In this document: positions 12,185 to 19,383 of the stretch, one piece after another
Layout: every line of letters begins with the position of its first letter
Numbering within the stretch: the stretch's first letter is position 1
Origin: Actinomycetota bacterium
GTDB lineage: Bacteria > Actinomycetota > Acidimicrobiia > IMCC26256 > PALSA-610
NCBI GenBank assembly: GCA_003134555.1
Contig: PLBO01000067.1
Coordinates: forward strand, 34,680-68,290
Length of the DNA stretch: 33,611 nt
Direction of reading: 5' to 3'
Translations under genes and position numbers: made by a program
Notes under the pieces: model-generated
The model's database searches: none
The model's input: the letters and a program-made list of their open reading frames with translations, nothing else
Told to the model about the DNA's origin: nothing

Positions 12185-12230
12185 GAAGTGGGCGCTGGCG
12201 GGCTCGAACCGCCGACCCCCTGCTTGTAAG
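12185..12230 (-). repeat. Right attachment-site copy within tRNA-Val
   Basis: Identical over 46 bases to 7391-7436. It spans three bases beyond the tRNA 3' end through the anticodon loop of the intact tRNA-Val gene. This is the usual extent of a tyrosine-recombinase core site in a tRNA. Confidence 0.88.
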
Positions 12231-12261
12231 GCAGGTGCTCTACCGACTGAGCTAAACGCCC
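12189..12261 (-). tRNA. tRNA-Val (anticodon UAC)
   Basis: A full 73-base cloverleaf can be drawn on the leftward strand. The acceptor is GGGCGTT/AGCGCCC with one G-U pair. The D arm is GCTC/GAGC around AGTCGGTA. The anticodon stem is CCTGC/GCAGG with loop CTTACAA (anticodon TAC). A five-base variable loop follows, then the T arm GGCGG-TTCGAGC-CCGCC and discriminator A. CCA is not encoded. It is the integration target of the island to its left. Confidence 0.96.
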
Positions 12262-12785: not shown

Positions 12786-13265
12786 CTAGGCCGGGAGGTC
12801 GTCCTCCGAGAGGACCTCGATCCCGACGGCCCGCAGCGCGGCCGCGGTCACGCCCTCGCCGGCACGCAACGTGCGCGAGAACGTGCCGTCGTAGACGAGT
12901 GCGCTGCCGCACGACGGACTGCGCGCCTTCAACACGGCCTGGCTGGCTCCGACCGCTCGGGCCAGCTCGACTGCCGCGCGAGCACCCCGTTCGTACGCAT
13001 CGGTCACGTCTGCGCCCTCGGCGTTGACGACGCGATCGCCGCGGCGTTCGGCGGCGGGCCGGGGGGTCGACAAGCCGCCGCACACCTCGGGGCAGATCGG
13101 CACCAGGCGGTGAGTCGCCGCCAAAGCCTCGACCGCAGGCCGGCGCGAGTGCCCGCCCTCGTGATTGCAGCGGGTCCCGAGCAGGCACGCCGACACGAGC
13201 AGCGCCGGCCGGTCGTCGGAATTCTCCGGGTCGGAGATTCTTCGGGAGATTCTTCGTAACGGCAC
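12786..13265 (-). CDS. DUF523 family protein
   Basis: The family core is clear: ALLVSACLLGTRCNHEGG near the start, then LVPICPEVCGGLSTPRPAAE, GADVTDAYERGARAAVELAR, and QAVLKARSPSCGS with YDGTFSRTLRAGEG. Four cysteines in conserved positions (SACLLG, CPEVCGG, SPSCG) suggest a metal or Fe-S site, but the reaction is unknown. GTG 13265 gives 159 residues, close to the usual length. Starting at GTG 13196 would remove the first beta strand. A tandem 12-base repeat (GAAGAATCTC units near 13234-13257) encodes RRISRRIS just upstream of the core, so the exact start is uncertain. It lies downstream of whiB7 in the same direction with a 167-base gap. Confidence 0.85.
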   Translation of the reverse strand: MPLRRISRRISDPENSDDRPALLVSACLLGTRCNHEGGHSRRPAVEALAATHRLVPICPEVCGGLSTPRPAAERRGDRVVNAEGADVTDAYERGARAAVELARAVGASQAVLKARSPSCGSALVYDGTFSRTLRAGEGVTAAALRAVGIEVLSEDDLPA

Positions 13266-13432
13266 GCCGGAGAAGGTATGCGCGGGCGGGGAAGCCGAGT
13301 CGGGCAATCGAAGGAATTGACCGCTCGCAGGCCGGGACTCGCATCCGTGAGCGGCGGGGGGATGTCGCTCACGTCTCGTTGTCCCGGCCCGCGCGTGTGC
13401 GGCAAACCGATGCGCCCGGCGCCCTCCCCGGC

Positions 13433-13759
13433 TCAGGCCGATTGCGCCTGCGGCACGTCGAGCTCGGGGCGCACCTTGGGCGGGCGTCCCCGCTTGCGCT
13501 TCTGGGCGACGATCTTGCCGTTCACGAACAGCTCGCCACCCCAGACGCCCCACGGCTCGCGCCGCTCCTGCGCGCCGTCGAGGCACGTCTCCCGTACCGG
13601 GCACTCGAGGCAGAAGGCCTTGGCGGCCGCGATGTCGTCGAGTTGCTCGGAGAAGAACAACTCGATCATCGATCCCGTGCCGTCGTTACAGCGCGCGAGT
13701 TCCTGCCAGTCGGGTTCTCTCGTGGTCTCGTCGGTCTCGAAAGGCTGGATGGCGAACAT
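13433..13759 (-). CDS. whiB7: WhiB7-type Fe-S transcriptional regulator
   Basis: A 108-residue Wbl protein. The four cluster cysteines are Cys24, Cys50, Cys53 and Cys59 (C..CxxC..C). They are followed by the EPWGVWGGELF turn (residues 68-78), which contacts the principal sigma factor, and by an AT-hook-like KRKRGRPPK (87-95). The combination REPWGVWGGE(L/I)F, a GxIV spacer and an RGRP(P/R)K hook is the hallmark of WhiB7. In Mycobacterium and Streptomyces (WblC), WhiB7 activates intrinsic antibiotic-resistance genes and its own promoter. The ribosome site GGGGGAG lies ten bases before ATG 13759. Upstream is a long leader with promoter, uORF and terminator. The C-terminal tail after the hook is longer than in mycobacterial WhiB7. 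Confidence 0.88.
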   Translation of the reverse strand: MFAIQPFETDETTREPDWQELARCNDGTGSMIELFFSEQLDDIAAAKAFCLECPVRETCLDGAQERREPWGVWGGELFVNGKIVAQKRKRGRPPKVRPELDVPQAQSA

Positions 13760-13861: not shown

Positions 13862-13895
13862 CAAACAAAAAGGCCGCCGGGTTGCCCCGACGGCC
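13862..13895 (-). terminator. Rho-independent terminator in the whiB7 leader
   Basis: On the leftward strand: stem arm GGCCGTCGGG (13895-13886), loop GCAA, arm CCCGGCGGCC (13881-13872) with one mismatch, then TTTTTGTTTG. It lies 102 bases upstream of the whiB7 ATG and 26 bases past the uORF stop. It would stop transcription before whiB7 unless the antiterminator forms. Confidence 0.88.
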
Positions 13896-13952
13896 TGGTG
13901 GATGCTCCCTGGTAGCGGTTGCTACGGATGGGACACCTCGAGGCGTCGGGGC
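13884..13952 (-). promoter_or_regulatory. Antiterminator hairpin of the whiB7 leader
   Basis: Nested complementary blocks: 13944-13952 with 13884-13892 (nine perfect GC-rich pairs, CGTCGGGGC/GCCCCGACG), CACC with GGTG (13934-13937/13897-13900), GGGA with TCCC (13930-13933/13906-13909), and GCTAC with GTAGC (13921-13925/13912-13916). The inner arm takes most of the terminator's first arm (13886-13895), so the two structures exclude each other. The uORF stop codon lies inside the hairpin. A ribosome finishing the uORF would disrupt the hairpin, and a ribosome stalled earlier would let it form. Confidence 0.75.
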
Positions 13953-14095
13953 CGACCGTGCTTGTGTGCCGTGGTACCGAGCGAAATCGGCGACCAGGGC
14001 GCAAAGGCCGGCGAGACCGGGCACGGCTGGAAGGCACGCACGCGCGCGTTCCCGGCCATGTCATTGGCCTGGGTTGCGTACATGCGGACGGTCAT
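13922..14095 (-). CDS. whiB7 leader upstream ORF (57 codons)
   Basis: A leader peptide frame from ATG 14095 to TAG 13922-13924. It starts MTVRMYATQANDMAGNARVR and ends HGRPRRLEVSHP. An alternative in-frame ATG is at 14083. A weak purine stretch (GAGAAAG) lies upstream. The frame starts about 34 bases after the inferred transcription start and ends inside the antiterminator. The peptide has no family resemblance, and its arginine, proline and threonine codons are unremarkable. In the known WhiB7/WblC systems, uORF translation controls termination: impaired translation favours antitermination and whiB7 expression. The position is what supports this call, not the peptide sequence. If transcription starts further upstream, ATG 14137 would add 14 residues. 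Confidence 0.65.
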   Translation of the reverse strand: MTVRMYATQANDMAGNARVRAFQPCPVSPAFAPWSPISLGTTAHKHGRPRRLEVSHP

Positions 14096-14135
14096 GCGAG
14101 GCGTGCTTTCTCGTGCGTCGAACAGTCGAGCGTTC

Positions 14136-14173
14136 ATCCGACCATGATCGGAAAGATCCGTCAAATGATTTAA
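14136..14173 (-). promoter_or_regulatory. Probable autoregulated whiB7 promoter
   Basis: A good -35 box TTGACG (14164-14159) is followed by a 17-base spacer and a weak -10 TCGGAT (14141-14136). An A/T-only-rich block (TTAAATCATTT, 14173-14163) directly abuts the -35 box. WhiB7 AT-hooks are known to bind such an AT-rich stretch just upstream of -35. The block overlaps the stop codon of the phosphatase gene. The boxes are seen; the control is inferred from the family. Confidence 0.6.
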
Positions 14174-14964
14174 CCGATTTCGGGGCGGGCGGAGGCGGCG
14201 ATGTCGATCAGGGCGGCATGAACGGCCGGGGGCGCGGCCAGCACGTTGCCCGATCGCAGCCAGGCCCGGTCGTCGCCTTCCCAGTCGGTGACGACGCCGC
14301 CCGCCTCGCGCACGATCAAGCCGCCCGCGGCAACGTCCCACGGACCGAGGCGGAGCTCGAAGAATCCGTCGAACACCCCCTCGGCGGTCCAGCAGAGATC
14401 GAGGCTGGCCGCACCGGCCCGGCGGAGATCCTCGAAGCCTCGCAGCGCGGCGGCCAGCGCCCGCTCGTAGACGGGCAACAGCTCCTTGCGCCGGAAGGGA
14501 AAGCCGGTTGCCACGATCGCCTGCGCCGGAGGACGCGAGCTGACGCGCAGAGGTCGTTCGTCGCGAAACGCCCCCACGCCCCGCGCCGCGCAGAACGTGC
14601 GGTCGAGGAGCGGCGCGTGCACCACACCGACGACGGGCACGCCGTCCTCGATCAGGCCGACCGAGACGCCGACCGCGTCGAAGCCGTGCACGAAGTTGGC
14701 CGTGCCGTCGAGCGGGTCGACGAGCCAGCCGGTCTCGAAGTCGTCCCCGCCGGCCTCCTCGCCGTACACCGGCAGGCCCGAGTCGCGCGTCAACAACTCT
14801 CGGATGGCCTGCTCGCTCGCGACGTCGGCTTCGCTCACCCAGTCGCCCGGCGATTTCTCGCGCACCGCCTCGAGGTGGCCGAAGTAGCGGCGCACGACGT
14901 CGCCGCCGACACGCGCCGCACGGTCGGCGCACGCGAGCAGCTCGCGATAGTCGAGGGCGCTCAC
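14170..14964 (-). CDS. Inositol-monophosphatase-family phosphatase (paralogue 1)
   Basis: A 264-residue Li+-sensitive-type phosphatase with all signature motifs. These are the metal-binding GEEAG (Glu69/Glu70), DPLDGTANFVHGF (Asp83, Asp86, Gly87, Thr88) and the C-terminal GPWDVAAGGLIVREAGG, where the Asp binds the third metal. It should hydrolyse inositol-1-phosphate or a related sugar or nucleotide phosphate. In actinobacteria, family members serve inositol, mycothiol, phosphatidylinositol or histidinol-phosphate pathways. It starts at GTG 14964, overlapping the stop of the second paralogue by four bases. It is the last gene of the molybdoenzyme operon, and the whiB7 promoter begins at its stop codon. 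Confidence 0.92.
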   Translation of the reverse strand: MSALDYRELLACADRAARVGGDVVRRYFGHLEAVREKSPGDWVSEADVASEQAIRELLTRDSGLPVYGEEAGGDDFETGWLVDPLDGTANFVHGFDAVGVSVGLIEDGVPVVGVVHAPLLDRTFCAARGVGAFRDERPLRVSSRPPAQAIVATGFPFRRKELLPVYERALAAALRGFEDLRRAGAASLDLCWTAEGVFDGFFELRLGPWDVAAGGLIVREAGGVVTDWEGDDRAWLRSGNVLAAPPAVHAALIDIAASARPEIG

Positions 14965-15704
14965 GCGAGACTCATGAGCGCGTCTGCGAGCTCGGGGGTA
15001 CCGGCCGCGACGAGCTGCCGCCGCGCGTCGGGGTCGTCGGTGACGAGCGTCCGGCCGCGCGCGTCACGCGCGACCGCGCCCGCTTCGACGCACGCGAGGT
15101 AGCCCGCGAGATAGTCCCACGGCGCGTGGAAGCCCCCCGCGTCGAGGAGGCCGTCGAGGCTGCCGGCTGCGATCTCGCACAGCCCGAGCGCGGCCGAGCC
15201 GAGCGCACGGAACTGCTTCCACGGGGCCACGGCGGGCGGGGTTCCCGTCAGGTACACCATGGCGTCCTCGACCCGTTTCGTCGTCGACGCACGCATCCGC
15301 ACGCCGTCTCGGAACGCGCCACAACCGCGCACCGCCGTGACGGAAACGCCCGTGGCCTGGTTCACGACGAGCCCGGCCAGCGGGCCGTCGGCGTCGAGCG
15401 CGCAGATCGAGGTGGCCCAGTAGGGGATGCGCCGGGAGCAGTTGGTCGAACCGTCGACGGGGTCGACCACCACGGTGATCGTCGCGCCCGCGCGTTCGTG
15501 CACCCCCGACTCCTCGCTCACGATCCGGACGCCGGCGGCCTGCAGGACGCGGCATGCCTCGGCGTCGGCGACGACATCGAGCGCGTACTGACCGGCGCGA
15601 TCGGTGCGCGCCCGCAAGTCGGTCGTGTCGATCGCGTCGACCGCGCGCCGCACGACACGCCCGACGTCGACGAACAGCTCCAGCAGCGCGTCGGGAGACG
15701 TCAT
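14961..15704 (-). CDS. Inositol-monophosphatase-family phosphatase (paralogue 2)
   Basis: A 247-residue paralogue of the following gene. Motifs present: SEESGV (Glu64/Glu65), DPVDGSTNCSRRIPYWATS (Asp81, Asp84) and APWDYLAGYLACVEAGAV. The metal-binding acids are kept, so it is probably active. TNCSR replaces the TNF(V/I)HG loop, and YLAGY replaces the usual VAAG segment, so its substrate pocket differs from the neighbour's. The ATG shares one base with the molybdoenzyme stop (TGATG), and its end overlaps the next gene by GTGA. Two divergent IMPase paralogues side by side in a molybdoenzyme operon is unusual. I cannot assign a substrate. Confidence 0.88.
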   Translation of the reverse strand: MTSPDALLELFVDVGRVVRRAVDAIDTTDLRARTDRAGQYALDVVADAEACRVLQAAGVRIVSEESGVHERAGATITVVVDPVDGSTNCSRRIPYWATSICALDADGPLAGLVVNQATGVSVTAVRGCGAFRDGVRMRASTTKRVEDAMVYLTGTPPAVAPWKQFRALGSAALGLCEIAAGSLDGLLDAGGFHAPWDYLAGYLACVEAGAVARDARGRTLVTDDPDARRQLVAAGTPELADALMSLA

Positions 15705-17962
15705 CAGACGGGAATCACTTCGACGACCGCGTTGTAGTCGGGCACACCCGAGATCGGCTCGCGCCGGGCCGGCGCGAGCAACGGATTCGCCTCGGGGAAG
15801 AAGGCCTGCACGTTGCCGGGCCGGATCGGCGCAACGTGCACCCGCGCGTGCATCTCGCCGAACTGCGACCGCACCAGCACGGCGGCTCCCTCGGCCACGC
15901 CGAGCGCGGTCGCGTCGCCCGCCGCGACGAACAGCGCATCGCGTCGCGCGCCGGTCAGAGGGTCGACGTCGTTCCACACCATTGTGTTGAACTGCTTGCC
16001 GCGCCGGGTCGACAGAACGAAATGACCCTCGGGCACGTCGTGGCGTTCGGGGGTGACCACGGCGAAGTTCGCGCGGCCGCCGGGTCTGGGGAAGACGCCG
16101 CCCTCGCACAAGCGTGCGCCCCCCACCTGGATCGCGTCGCCGGTCTCGTGCAGGTGCTCGATTCCCGCGTACGCGGGAACGACACGCGCGATCTCGGTGC
16201 GGATCGCCTCCGCCGATTCGCACCCGAAGACCGCCGCCCGCTCGGGCCGCACGCGTTTCGCGATGTCGGCGAATATCCGCCATTCACTGCGCGCTTCTCC
16301 GATCCGTGGACCTGGGATCTCGGGACTGAAGGCGACCCGCCGCTCCGTCGTGGTCGACGTCCCGCCGCCCTCCTGCTCGTAGCGCGTCGCCGCGGGCAAC
16401 AGCACGACGACTTCGCCGGGTTCGACGAGCATCTGGTGCGAAAGGACGATGTCCTGATGGATGCGGAGTGGTGCGCGCGAAAGCGCCGCGCGGGTGACGT
16501 CGGGCGCGGGCAACACGTCGAGAAAGTTGCCGCCGCTCGACCAGAGCACGTCGAGATCGCCTTGTCGCGCGGCGTCGACCATCGCCGCCGCGGTCAGGCC
16601 CGCCGACGCCGGTACGTCGAAGCCCCACTGCGCACTGAGCTCACGAGCCGCCTCCGCCGTGATGGGCCCGCCGCCGGGGAACGTGGTCGCATAACAACCC
16701 ATCTCCGCGCCGCCCTGCACGCCCGAGTGCCCGCGGATGGGCATGAGCCCTGCGCCCGGACGCCCGACGTTCCCGCGCGCCAGACCGAGGTTCACGATCG
16801 CGCGCACGTTGTCGACGCCCGAGACGTGCTGGGTCACACCCATCGACCAGACGAGCACCGCGGAGCGCGCCGACGCGTACATCCGCCCGAAGCGCGCCAT
16901 GTCGTCGCGCGTCGCACCTGACGCCTGCTCGAGCAGATCGAACGGCTCGTCCTCGAGCTCACCCAGCAGCGCGTCGAAACCCTCGGTATGTTCCTTGACG
17001 AAGTCACGGTCGACCCCGCCGGTCGCCATCAGTTCCTTGAGCACGCCATTGACGAACGCGACGTCGCCGCCAGTGTGGATCGCGAAGAACTCGTCGGCGA
17101 TCTTCGTGCCGAAGAGTGCGCTCTCGACGTTCGACGGCACCCAGTAATGCTCCAGGCCGGGCTCGCGCAGCGGGTTCACGACGGCAACCCGCGCCCCGCG
17201 CTGCTTGGCGAGATACAGGTACTTCATGAAGACGGGTTGGGCGTTGGCAACATCCGACCCGAACAGGACGATGAGATCGCTCTCGATCACGTCGCGGTAC
17301 GAGCACGTCGTCGCGGCGACGCCGATCGCCTCTTTGAGCGCCGAGGTCGAGGGTGCGTGACAGACCCGGGCCGCGTTGTCGACATTGTTCGTTCCGATGA
17401 ACCGAGCCGCCTTCTGTGACGTGTAATAGACCTCGTTGGTGATCCCCCGCGCGGTCAGATAGAGGCCGACGCGTTCGGGAGTCGTGGCGCGGATCCGCTC
17501 CGCAACGAGGTCGAGCGCGTCGTCCCACGACACGCGGGTGAACCCGCGGTCACCCTTGCGGCGCACCATCGGGTACGCGAGCCGCCCGAGCTCACGCAGG
17601 CGCCGGCCGTCGAGCCGCGCCAGCGCGTCGCCGTCGGCGAAGTGCTGCTCGTCGATCGCCCGCGCGGTGTTGAGCTTCAACAGGTCCAGGCGGGTCGTGC
17701 AGAGATGCACGCCGCTGATGGTCCAATCGTGGAAGCCGGCGACGCCGAGCGCGCACCCGTCGCACACGCCCTTGCGCAGGATGCGCATCGCGTACGGCAG
17801 TTCACGACGGTTGTCCCAGATCGTGTGCACGATGGCGCCGTAGTGGTTCGGCTTCTGTTCGCCGATGCCATTCGGTCTCCAGCCCACCCATTGGTCGCGC
17901 CGCAACCCGCGCCGGCTCTTGACGAGGTCGCCGCGCCGGCGACGCCTCCACCGAAGCTTCAT
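15704..17962 (-). CDS. Formate-dehydrogenase-like molybdopterin oxidoreductase (FdhF/YdeP type)
   Basis: A 752-residue molybdenum or tungsten enzyme of the DMSO-reductase family. An N-terminal CDGC pair (Cys67, Cys70) plus Cys88 lies where an Fe-S cluster would sit, although a fourth cysteine is not obvious. NAARVCHAPST (Cys201) corresponds to the Sec/Cys metal ligand of formate dehydrogenases, so this is a Cys form. Further motifs are LFGSDVANAQPVFMKYL, GDVAFVNGVLKELM, WSMGVTQHVSGVDNVRAIVNLGLARGNVGRPGAGLMPIRGHSGVQGG, and a C-terminal molybdopterin-binding domain (RRGKQFNTMVWN; ALGVAEGAAVLVRSQFG). No signal peptide is seen, so it is cytoplasmic. The YdeP-like group has poorly known substrates, so formate is a guess. 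The following fdhD and mobA genes support active cofactor delivery. Confidence 0.9.
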   Translation of the reverse strand: MKLRWRRRRRGDLVKSRRGLRRDQWVGWRPNGIGEQKPNHYGAIVHTIWDNRRELPYAMRILRKGVCDGCALGVAGFHDWTISGVHLCTTRLDLLKLNTARAIDEQHFADGDALARLDGRRLRELGRLAYPMVRRKGDRGFTRVSWDDALDLVAERIRATTPERVGLYLTARGITNEVYYTSQKAARFIGTNNVDNAARVCHAPSTSALKEAIGVAATTCSYRDVIESDLIVLFGSDVANAQPVFMKYLYLAKQRGARVAVVNPLREPGLEHYWVPSNVESALFGTKIADEFFAIHTGGDVAFVNGVLKELMATGGVDRDFVKEHTEGFDALLGELEDEPFDLLEQASGATRDDMARFGRMYASARSAVLVWSMGVTQHVSGVDNVRAIVNLGLARGNVGRPGAGLMPIRGHSGVQGGAEMGCYATTFPGGGPITAEAARELSAQWGFDVPASAGLTAAAMVDAARQGDLDVLWSSGGNFLDVLPAPDVTRAALSRAPLRIHQDIVLSHQMLVEPGEVVVLLPAATRYEQEGGGTSTTTERRVAFSPEIPGPRIGEARSEWRIFADIAKRVRPERAAVFGCESAEAIRTEIARVVPAYAGIEHLHETGDAIQVGGARLCEGGVFPRPGGRANFAVVTPERHDVPEGHFVLSTRRGKQFNTMVWNDVDPLTGARRDALFVAAGDATALGVAEGAAVLVRSQFGEMHARVHVAPIRPGNVQAFFPEANPLLAPARREPISGVPDYNAVVEVIPV

Positions 17963-17966
17963 GGTC

Positions 17967-18815
17967 TCATGCGTTCACGTCGACGCGGTCGGGACGCGTG
18001 TACACGTTGAACCTGGCGTCGCGGACGAATCCGACGACCGTCTGGCCCAACTGGTCGGCGGCCGCAACCGCCAGGCTCGATGGCGCCGACACCGCGCACA
18101 GCACCGAGATGCCCGCGACCGCGGCCTTCTGGACGAGCTCGAACGACAAGCGACCGGAGACGAGCAGGATGTCGTTCGCGAGCGGAAGCTCGCCTGCGAG
18201 CAACGCGTGGCCGATGAGCTTGTCGAGCGCGTTGTGCCGGCCGACGTCCTCGCGCGCGTCACGCAGGGTCCCGTCGGGCTCGAAGCGCGCCGCGGCGTGC
18301 AACCCACCGGTCTGGTCGAACACCCCTTGGTGGCGGGCGAGCTGCTCGGGCAGCGAGCCGATCACACTTGCCGCGATCGCCGGTCCCGCGCCGACCGGCG
18401 CGCACCGCACCTCGATCTCTTCGAGCGCAGCCTTGCCGCAGATCCCGCAAGACGAGTTCGACAGGTAGCGGCGCTCGCGCACATCGTCGGGAACCGGTGT
18501 ACGCAGCCGGACGGTGACGACATTGAACATCTGTTCGCGTTCCGGACCGAGGCAGTAGGCGATGTTGTCGAGATCGTCGGAGCCGGCGAGCAGTCCTTCG
18601 GTGAGGCACAAACCGGCCGCGAGCTCGAAATCATTTCCCGGTGTGCGCATCGCCACCGCAAACGGCACGGGCTCCTGCCGCGGTCCCGCCACCCGCACTT
18701 CCATCGGCTCCTCGGTGACGAGCTGGTCCGGACGCCGCCGCACGCCCCCCGCGTCGAACGAGAGCACCTGCACATCACTCACGGGACGCCGAACCGCCGC
18801 GTCGGACAAACGCAT
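17967..18815 (-). CDS. fdhD: FdhD, sulfurtransferase for formate dehydrogenase maturation
   Basis: A 282-residue FdhD. The conserved SSCGICGK motif (Cys123, Cys126) carries the cysteine pair that takes sulfur from IscS and passes it to the molybdenum cofactor. TEEPMEVRV, TPGNDFELAAGLCLTEGL, EDVGRHNALDKLIGHALL and ILLVSGRLSFELVQKA are all typical. It starts at ATG 18815. An upstream extension would overlap mobA and is not family-like. A TAGGCT box lies seven bases before the ATG and overlaps the mobA stop, so an internal leaderless start is possible. It lies four bases upstream of the molybdoenzyme gene it is expected to serve. Confidence 0.95.
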   Translation of the reverse strand: MRLSDAAVRRPVSDVQVLSFDAGGVRRRPDQLVTEEPMEVRVAGPRQEPVPFAVAMRTPGNDFELAAGLCLTEGLLAGSDDLDNIAYCLGPEREQMFNVVTVRLRTPVPDDVRERRYLSNSSCGICGKAALEEIEVRCAPVGAGPAIAASVIGSLPEQLARHQGVFDQTGGLHAAARFEPDGTLRDAREDVGRHNALDKLIGHALLAGELPLANDILLVSGRLSFELVQKAAVAGISVLCAVSAPSSLAVAAADQLGQTVVGFVRDARFNVYTRPDRVDVNA

Positions 18816-18825
18816 GTTCGAGAGC

Positions 18826-19383
18826 CTATGAGAGACCGAGGCGGCGAAGGTCTGCCGGAGTGTCGACGTCGGCAAACGTGTTGGCGGAGCCCACAGCACG
18901 CCACTGCGCCTCGGAAAGCTCGTCGTGGTCGCCGTCGCCCGCGGCGCGCAAGGAGTAGTCGCCCGCCGCGAGCGCGATCTCCGCTCGCGCGAGCGCATCG
19001 GAGCCGTAGCGCGCGCACGCGTACTGCAGCCGACCGTCGACGACGGGGATCACCGTTTGCCGTCCCGACCACTCGGCGAGGAGGGAGAGGACCGGCGGCT
19101 CCACGAACGGCAAGTCGCACGCGAGCAACACGACCGGACCCTGCGATCCCGCGGCGCGGGCGCCGGCGAGCAACGCGGCGAGCGGCCCGGATCCGGGCGG
19201 TTCCTCGAGCACATAACGAAGACCGCTCACCCCCGAACCGACCTCGAGCACCGGATCACATGCCGCGCCCAGCACGCGGGCCGCACGCGCCGCGAGCGTC
19301 TCACCGCGCCAGAGGATGCTCGCCTTGTCGGTCGCCATGCGGCGGCTCGCGCCGCCCGTGAGCAGCACGCCCGCGCAGGTCAC
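18826..19383 (-). CDS. mobA: Molybdenum cofactor guanylyltransferase MobA
   Basis: A 185-residue nucleotidyltransferase. The GTP-binding loop reads LLTGGASRRMATDKASILWRG (family consensus L(A/T)GG.S.RMG.DK). A central VVLLACDLPFVEP carries the metal-binding Asp90, and the C-terminus VGSANTFADVDTPADLRRLG is typical. The enzyme adds GMP to molybdopterin to make the guanine dinucleotide form used by DMSO-reductase-family enzymes, such as the one downstream. It starts at GTG 19383, overlapping the stop of the membrane-protein gene by four bases. One glycine of the loop is replaced by alanine (RRMA instead of RRMG), which is tolerated in homologues. Confidence 0.93.
   Translation of the reverse strand: MTCAGVLLTGGASRRMATDKASILWRGETLAARAARVLGAACDPVLEVGSGVSGLRYVLEEPPGSGPLAALLAGARAAGSQGPVVLLACDLPFVEPPVLSLLAEWSGRQTVIPVVDGRLQYACARYGSDALARAEIALAAGDYSLRAAGDGDHDELSEAQWRAVGSANTFADVDTPADLRRLGLS

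Follow-up and report, generated by a model that had tools for sequence, protein, structure and literature searches.

A uORF-controlled transcription attenuator very probably precedes whiB7 in Acidimicrobiia

The whiB7 leader on the minus strand of the window (the whole 33,611-nucleotide stretch of DNA analysed here) is very probably, at about 0.92, a transcription attenuator controlled by an upstream open reading frame (uORF). This conclusion rests on the anatomy of the leader, its conservation and covariation, its mutually exclusive folds and the presence of about one such element per genome, all observed here. An earlier note, made from the sequence of the window alone, had proposed the antibiotic-responsive switch of mycobacterial whiB7 and Streptomyces wblC, and that proposal is now supported by conserved arms, uORF and terminator, by compensatory changes and by the position ahead of whiB7. 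Attenuation of whiB7/wblC by a uORF has been published before (PMC10727445, PMC11550727, PMC13236596; also PMC4128351). Since the leader matches the published attenuator, we regard it as an instance of a known device and not as a new one; the comparisons appear to extend this device to the distant, mostly uncultured class Acidimicrobiia, where it bears evolutionary marks of selection. Control of whiB7 by antibiotic sensing is probably general in this largely uncultured class and would reach beyond pathogens and antibiotic producers, and the findings suggest that sensing of translation stress is ancestral in Actinomycetota. Our literature search returned no paper treating whiB7 together with Acidimicrobiia.

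The whiB7 gene and the anatomy of its leader

The features discussed below are, in order of transcription:

14165..14173, minus strand: AT-rich block TTAAATCAT, presumed AT-hook site (sequence; recurs at the leader TTGAC boxes of relatives)
14159..14164, minus strand: -35 box TTGACG (sequence; TTGAC also in the leaders of relatives)
14136..14141, minus strand: putative, weak -10 element TCGGAT (position only, 17-bp spacer)
13922..14095, minus strand: uORF of 57 codons plus TAG (position and length recur in relatives)
13944..13952, minus strand: 5' arm of the antiterminator (P1), within the uORF (9 perfect pairs; covariation and permutation tests)
13912..13925, minus strand: small hairpin P2 with the uORF stop in its stem (local fold z in relatives; two-sided changes)
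13884..13892, minus strand: 3' arm of the antiterminator, part of the terminator's first arm (covariation, permutation, folding)
13863..13895, minus strand: Rho-independent terminator, GC-rich stem of 10-11 bp and U-rich tail (folding; same hairpin in nearly all relatives)
13433..13759, minus strand: whiB7, a WhiB7/WblC-type Wbl regulator of 108 aa (Pfam Whib, E 2.2e-15)

By its sequence, the gene at 13433..13759 is a true whiB7. WhiB7/WblC proteins are recognised by four Cys, a G[IVL]W[GA]G turn after EPW and a C-terminal RGRP AT-hook (PMC10727445), and the translation holds all of these, with the turn as EPWGVWGG and the hook as KRGRPPK. Among solved structures, WhiB7 of M. tuberculosis (7kif) is the best match to the protein (E 2.3e-18; next Wbl type 8e-8) and outscores WhiB1 and WhiB3 by far. 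An NCBIfam search with the protein gave no match. The genome has about ten Wbl matches, and the other ones are 32-48% identical to WhiB7. The closest named relatives are Actinomycetota and Acidimicrobiia metagenome-assembled genomes (MAGs), such as KatS3mg009 with 74% identity; the source genome thus reads as an Acidimicrobiia-type MAG, which bears out the distant actinobacterial lineage surmised earlier. Of 41 relatives, 35 have whiB7; among 247 genomes of Acidimicrobiia, 95 gave a match when a strict cut-off of 1e-22 was applied. Two genomes carry a pair of whiB7-like genes about 1 kb apart (L114/L103 in G169, L120/L116 in G042), the leader of the first copy showing no terminator.

All neighbours named here lie on the minus strand. 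After whiB7, an ORF at 12786-13604 holds a 2-thiouracil desulfurase domain (DUF523, PF04463; 12786-13230), and a tRNA gene (12189-12261; Rfam RF00005, 72 bits) is found downstream of the whiB7 cluster. Upstream are an adjacent pair of inositol-monophosphatase-family genes (14170-16283) and an FdhF/YdeP-type molybdopterin oxidoreductase gene beside an FdhD gene (15704-18998).

The uORF begins with ATG at 14095 and ends with TAG at 13924-13922, encoding 57 aa, exactly as it had first been read. Its frame is open far upstream in the window (336 codons), so the window alone does not fix the start; the relatives do. The terminator consists of a stem at 13895-13872 and a U-rich tail reaching 13863, and it lies 102 bases ahead of the whiB7 ATG at 13759; it is the sole strong terminator found in the region. 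Within its first arm, CGUCGGGGC (13892-13884) pairs at nine of nine positions with GCCCCGACG (13952-13944), which sits 28-20 nt before the uORF stop. The larger hairpin formed in this way encloses the uORF stop, as the earlier note had described, and the stop lies in the small stem P2 (GUAGC/GCUAC, 13925-13921/13916-13912). Two features by which an attenuator is recognised are thus in place, namely a Rho-independent terminator between the uORF and whiB7 and an antiterminator built from overlapping uORF and terminator sequence; translation of the uORF, a predominance of short terminated RNA and a rise of full-length RNA under ribosome-targeting drugs would be the others. Folding, which had been named as a check, gave the antiterminator for a leader truncated behind the first terminator arm. 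The segment that begins with the uORF and reaches that arm has a folding z of -4.2, with none of 200 shuffles as low (z = -3.0 for the local region).

Upstream of the uORF, the AT-rich block directly abuts the 5' side of TTGACG (14164-14159), likewise as noted before. The AT-hook of WhiB7 binds an AT-rich motif adjoining the -35 box (PMC3905903, PMC7157823), and this rule, together with conservation of the block, supports the AT-hook part of the original claim. In 49 non-redundant leaders TTGAC is located 190-330 nt upstream of the terminator, and the mean A+T content next to these boxes is 5.6/8, while TTGAC sites elsewhere in those loci average 3.0/8. The putative -10 element diverges strongly from consensus, and a generic promoter scan of the region found no promoter. 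Within this genome the exact promoter motif occurs at whiB7 alone, and a search by motif for a wider WhiB7 regulon returned near matches no commoner than the reversed control.

Conservation and covariation across the class

Leaders of about 70 members of the class were extracted. The earlier note had staked its reading in part on conservation of the pairing arms in relatives, and arm, terminator and uORF do recur, with compensatory changes. Nearly all leaders contain the terminator hairpin GGCCG(U/C)CGGGG...CCCGGCGGCC with a U-rich tail behind it. Of 68 non-redundant leaders, 64 carry a uORF, 56 of them with ATG; its length is 46-73 codons (median 57). The distance from its end to the terminator arm is 21-36 nt in 60 of these leaders and 49-72 nt in the four exceptions. 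As the count seeks an open frame by construction, the evidence lies in how tightly uORF length and stop position cluster.

Some 24-28 nt ahead of the uORF stop, each leader has a stretch that fits its own terminator arm better than it fits those of other leaders (mean score 25.5 versus 21.5), and none of 10,000 permutations of the arms was as good. In an alignment of 35 leaders, the 11-pair helix is formed in 86% of cells. The whole structure has a covariation score of 0.176, compared with 0.126 ± 0.011 after shuffling and 0.037-0.084 for slid versions, and 27 of its cells are doubly changed versus 12.4 expected from shuffles, in counts that are inflated by the relatedness of the sequences. 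At the clearest position, G-C (17 leaders) exchanges with A-U (13) in the antiterminator, while the 3' arm of the terminator stays G, leaving a U.G wobble in 15 leaders. Thus, the antiterminator pairing appears to be selected on its own account. On the WhiB7 protein tree the terminator base of this pair has been substituted at least 9 times and its partner in the uORF 7 times, with two mismatching leaders; the tree is poorly supported, and its well-supported branches alone leave one independent pair scorable. RNAalifold returned the terminator alone from the alignment because each column may pair once.

P2 is conserved in a looser manner. Most leaders place the uORF stop within a small hairpin or next to one, with GUAGC/GCUAC in the relatives of the window and GACGU/ACGUC or CCCUGG/CCAGGG elsewhere, and four of the five pairs are changed on both sides. 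Since the hairpin shifts between lineages, it is just 66% paired in the strict-register alignment; a fold test per leader was used instead and gave a mean local z of -2.2 over 61 leaders, 48 of them below -1.

Some more distant members lack the arm in the same place (L044-L046, L017). In one further leader (L035 of G025), whiB7 apparently has neither uORF nor terminator, and an AAATC-TTGAC box lies about 81 nt before the gene; the attenuator may have been lost naturally in this relative.

A covariance model of the element has one strong match in most of the 41 relatives' genomes. The matches precede whiB7 wherever contigs allow, and two (G035, G036) are unlinked to whiB7 by contig breaks. The element therefore occurs about once per genome, ahead of whiB7. 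In the Rfam scan the tRNA was the one match, and no family fits the leader of the window or that of Streptomyces wblC, so our model is supplied where Rfam has none.

These comparisons also bear on the idea that the terminator merely ends the upstream inositol-monophosphatase gene (14170-14964), with the whiB7 promoter downstream of it and uORF and pairing incidental. The terminator does lie between both genes, and the phosphatase gene adjoins whiB7 in many relatives. It does not do so in all of them, however: about eleven leaders with roughly 1 kb of upstream sequence hold the uORF-terminator unit with no phosphatase detected. The promoter block is moreover conserved upstream of the uORF, and covariation ties the uORF to the terminator. 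We consider this explanation highly improbable.

Mutually exclusive folds and the proposed switch

When transcripts are truncated directly behind the first terminator arm, each of the 35 leaders folds predominantly into the antiterminator, with a median probability of 0.95; at full length the terminator is the minimum free energy fold in 27 of the 35. A masked ribosome footprint of 26 nt abolishes the antiterminator only with the A site about 3-12 codons before the stop, and modelled stalls further upstream leave it intact. In the leader of the window, a footprint at the stop codon lies inside the loop but misses the arm, which makes it uncertain precisely where a ribosome blocks pairing. The class offers a large set of natural variants in which the effect of ribosome position on termination could be dissected.

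A switch that depended solely on RNA folding, or on a ligand as in a riboswitch, would operate without translation. The strong structure of the leader (z -4.2) would suit it, but length, start and stop position of the uORF are conserved, within-genus indels are in frame, no Rfam family matches and homologous leaders need uORF translation (PMC11550727). We give this explanation hardly any weight compared with attenuation through the uORF.

It is harder to decide what the uORF would sense. It could encode a drug-specific arrest peptide of the erm/TopAI type that stalls ribosomes at one codon and works the same terminator/antiterminator switch. A Trp codon lies in the middle of 50 of 65 uORFs (3.5% versus 1.0% elsewhere), A-M-P...S-W-S is common to the peptides of some leaders, and another actinobacterial group has R-M-P-W in several of its uORFs. 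However, within-genus nonsynonymous/synonymous ratios of the uORF are mostly 0.6-0.9, the peptides differ widely between families, the C-terminal R-P-R-R is what the RNA arm encodes, and the arm stays free if the ribosome stalls anywhere upstream of roughly the last dozen codons. The peptide is, as far as these comparisons go, weakly constrained, and we therefore demote arrest at one codon to an unlikely variant of the switch. Weak constraint and variation between families suggest instead that the uORF is a sensor of translation speed.

For the attenuator as we read it, antibiotic response, coupling to the ribosome and autoregulation would be shared with the homologous leaders that have been studied by experiment. 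RNA polymerase would start near 14130 from the promoter with the AT block beside its -35 box, and a ribosome would translate the 57-codon uORF. A ribosome keeping pace would be in the last dozen codons, or at the stop codon, when the terminator's first arm is made; it would then cover the arm at 13952-13944, the terminator (13895-13872) would fold and transcription would stop. If the ribosome were stalled or slowed further upstream, by ribosome-targeting drugs or possibly by amino-acid shortage, the free arm would capture the terminator's first arm, the terminator would be blocked and whiB7 would be transcribed. WhiB7 presumably then boosts its own promoter through the AT-hook. A kinetic reading of the switch, by the pace of the ribosome, would be the simplest one. 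A ribosome that reaches the stop codon would open P2, which is nested in the antiterminator. We tentatively speculate, with some doubt, that the leader predates the split of the classes, that P2 is a working part sensitising the antiterminator to ribosomes near termination, and that the conserved U.G wobble weakens the terminator where the antiterminator stays Watson-Crick.

Comparison with known attenuators

Reviews describe the Streptomyces wblC leader (Lee, Lee and Roe 2022) with the same parts, namely a uORF and a terminator ahead of whiB7/wblC, a segment towards the end of the uORF that can pair with the first terminator arm, and a gap of about 25 nt between stop codon and terminator. In the Streptomyces leaders compared here, 33 nt separate the arm from the stop and 25-27 nt the stop from the terminator, close to the 24-28 and 21-36 nt of Acidimicrobiia. 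The arm sequences differ: UUCCG(C/U)GG with CCGCGGAA in Streptomyces, CCCCG(A/G)CGG with CCG(U/C)CGGGG in Acidimicrobiia. Streptomyces uORFs reach up to about 100 codons compared with about 57, and besides Trp residues the peptides of the two groups have no obvious similarity. Arm complementarity in single Streptomyces leaders is weakly significant (p 0.02-0.14). In another actinobacterial class (family code f63; L153, L154, L158, L159), uORFs of 37-40 codons stand ahead of whiB7 in the arm-stop-terminator layout of Acidimicrobiia, and several contain R-M-P-W.

Mycobacterial whiB7 likewise has a long 5' leader with a uORF behind a Shine-Dalgarno motif and a stem-loop with a U tract 3' of the uORF, and stalled ribosomes relieve attenuation there (PMC4128351, PMC13236596, PMC10727445); an AT-rich motif stands beside its -35 box (PMC3905903). 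The organism is different, and the likeness is one of leader descriptions. In amino-acid attenuators of the ilvB1/trp type, too, the position of the ribosome on a short leader ORF picks terminator or antiterminator. Unlike in these systems, no run of regulatory codons is seen in the whiB7 uORF, and while they control a biosynthetic operon, the target here is a resistance regulator.
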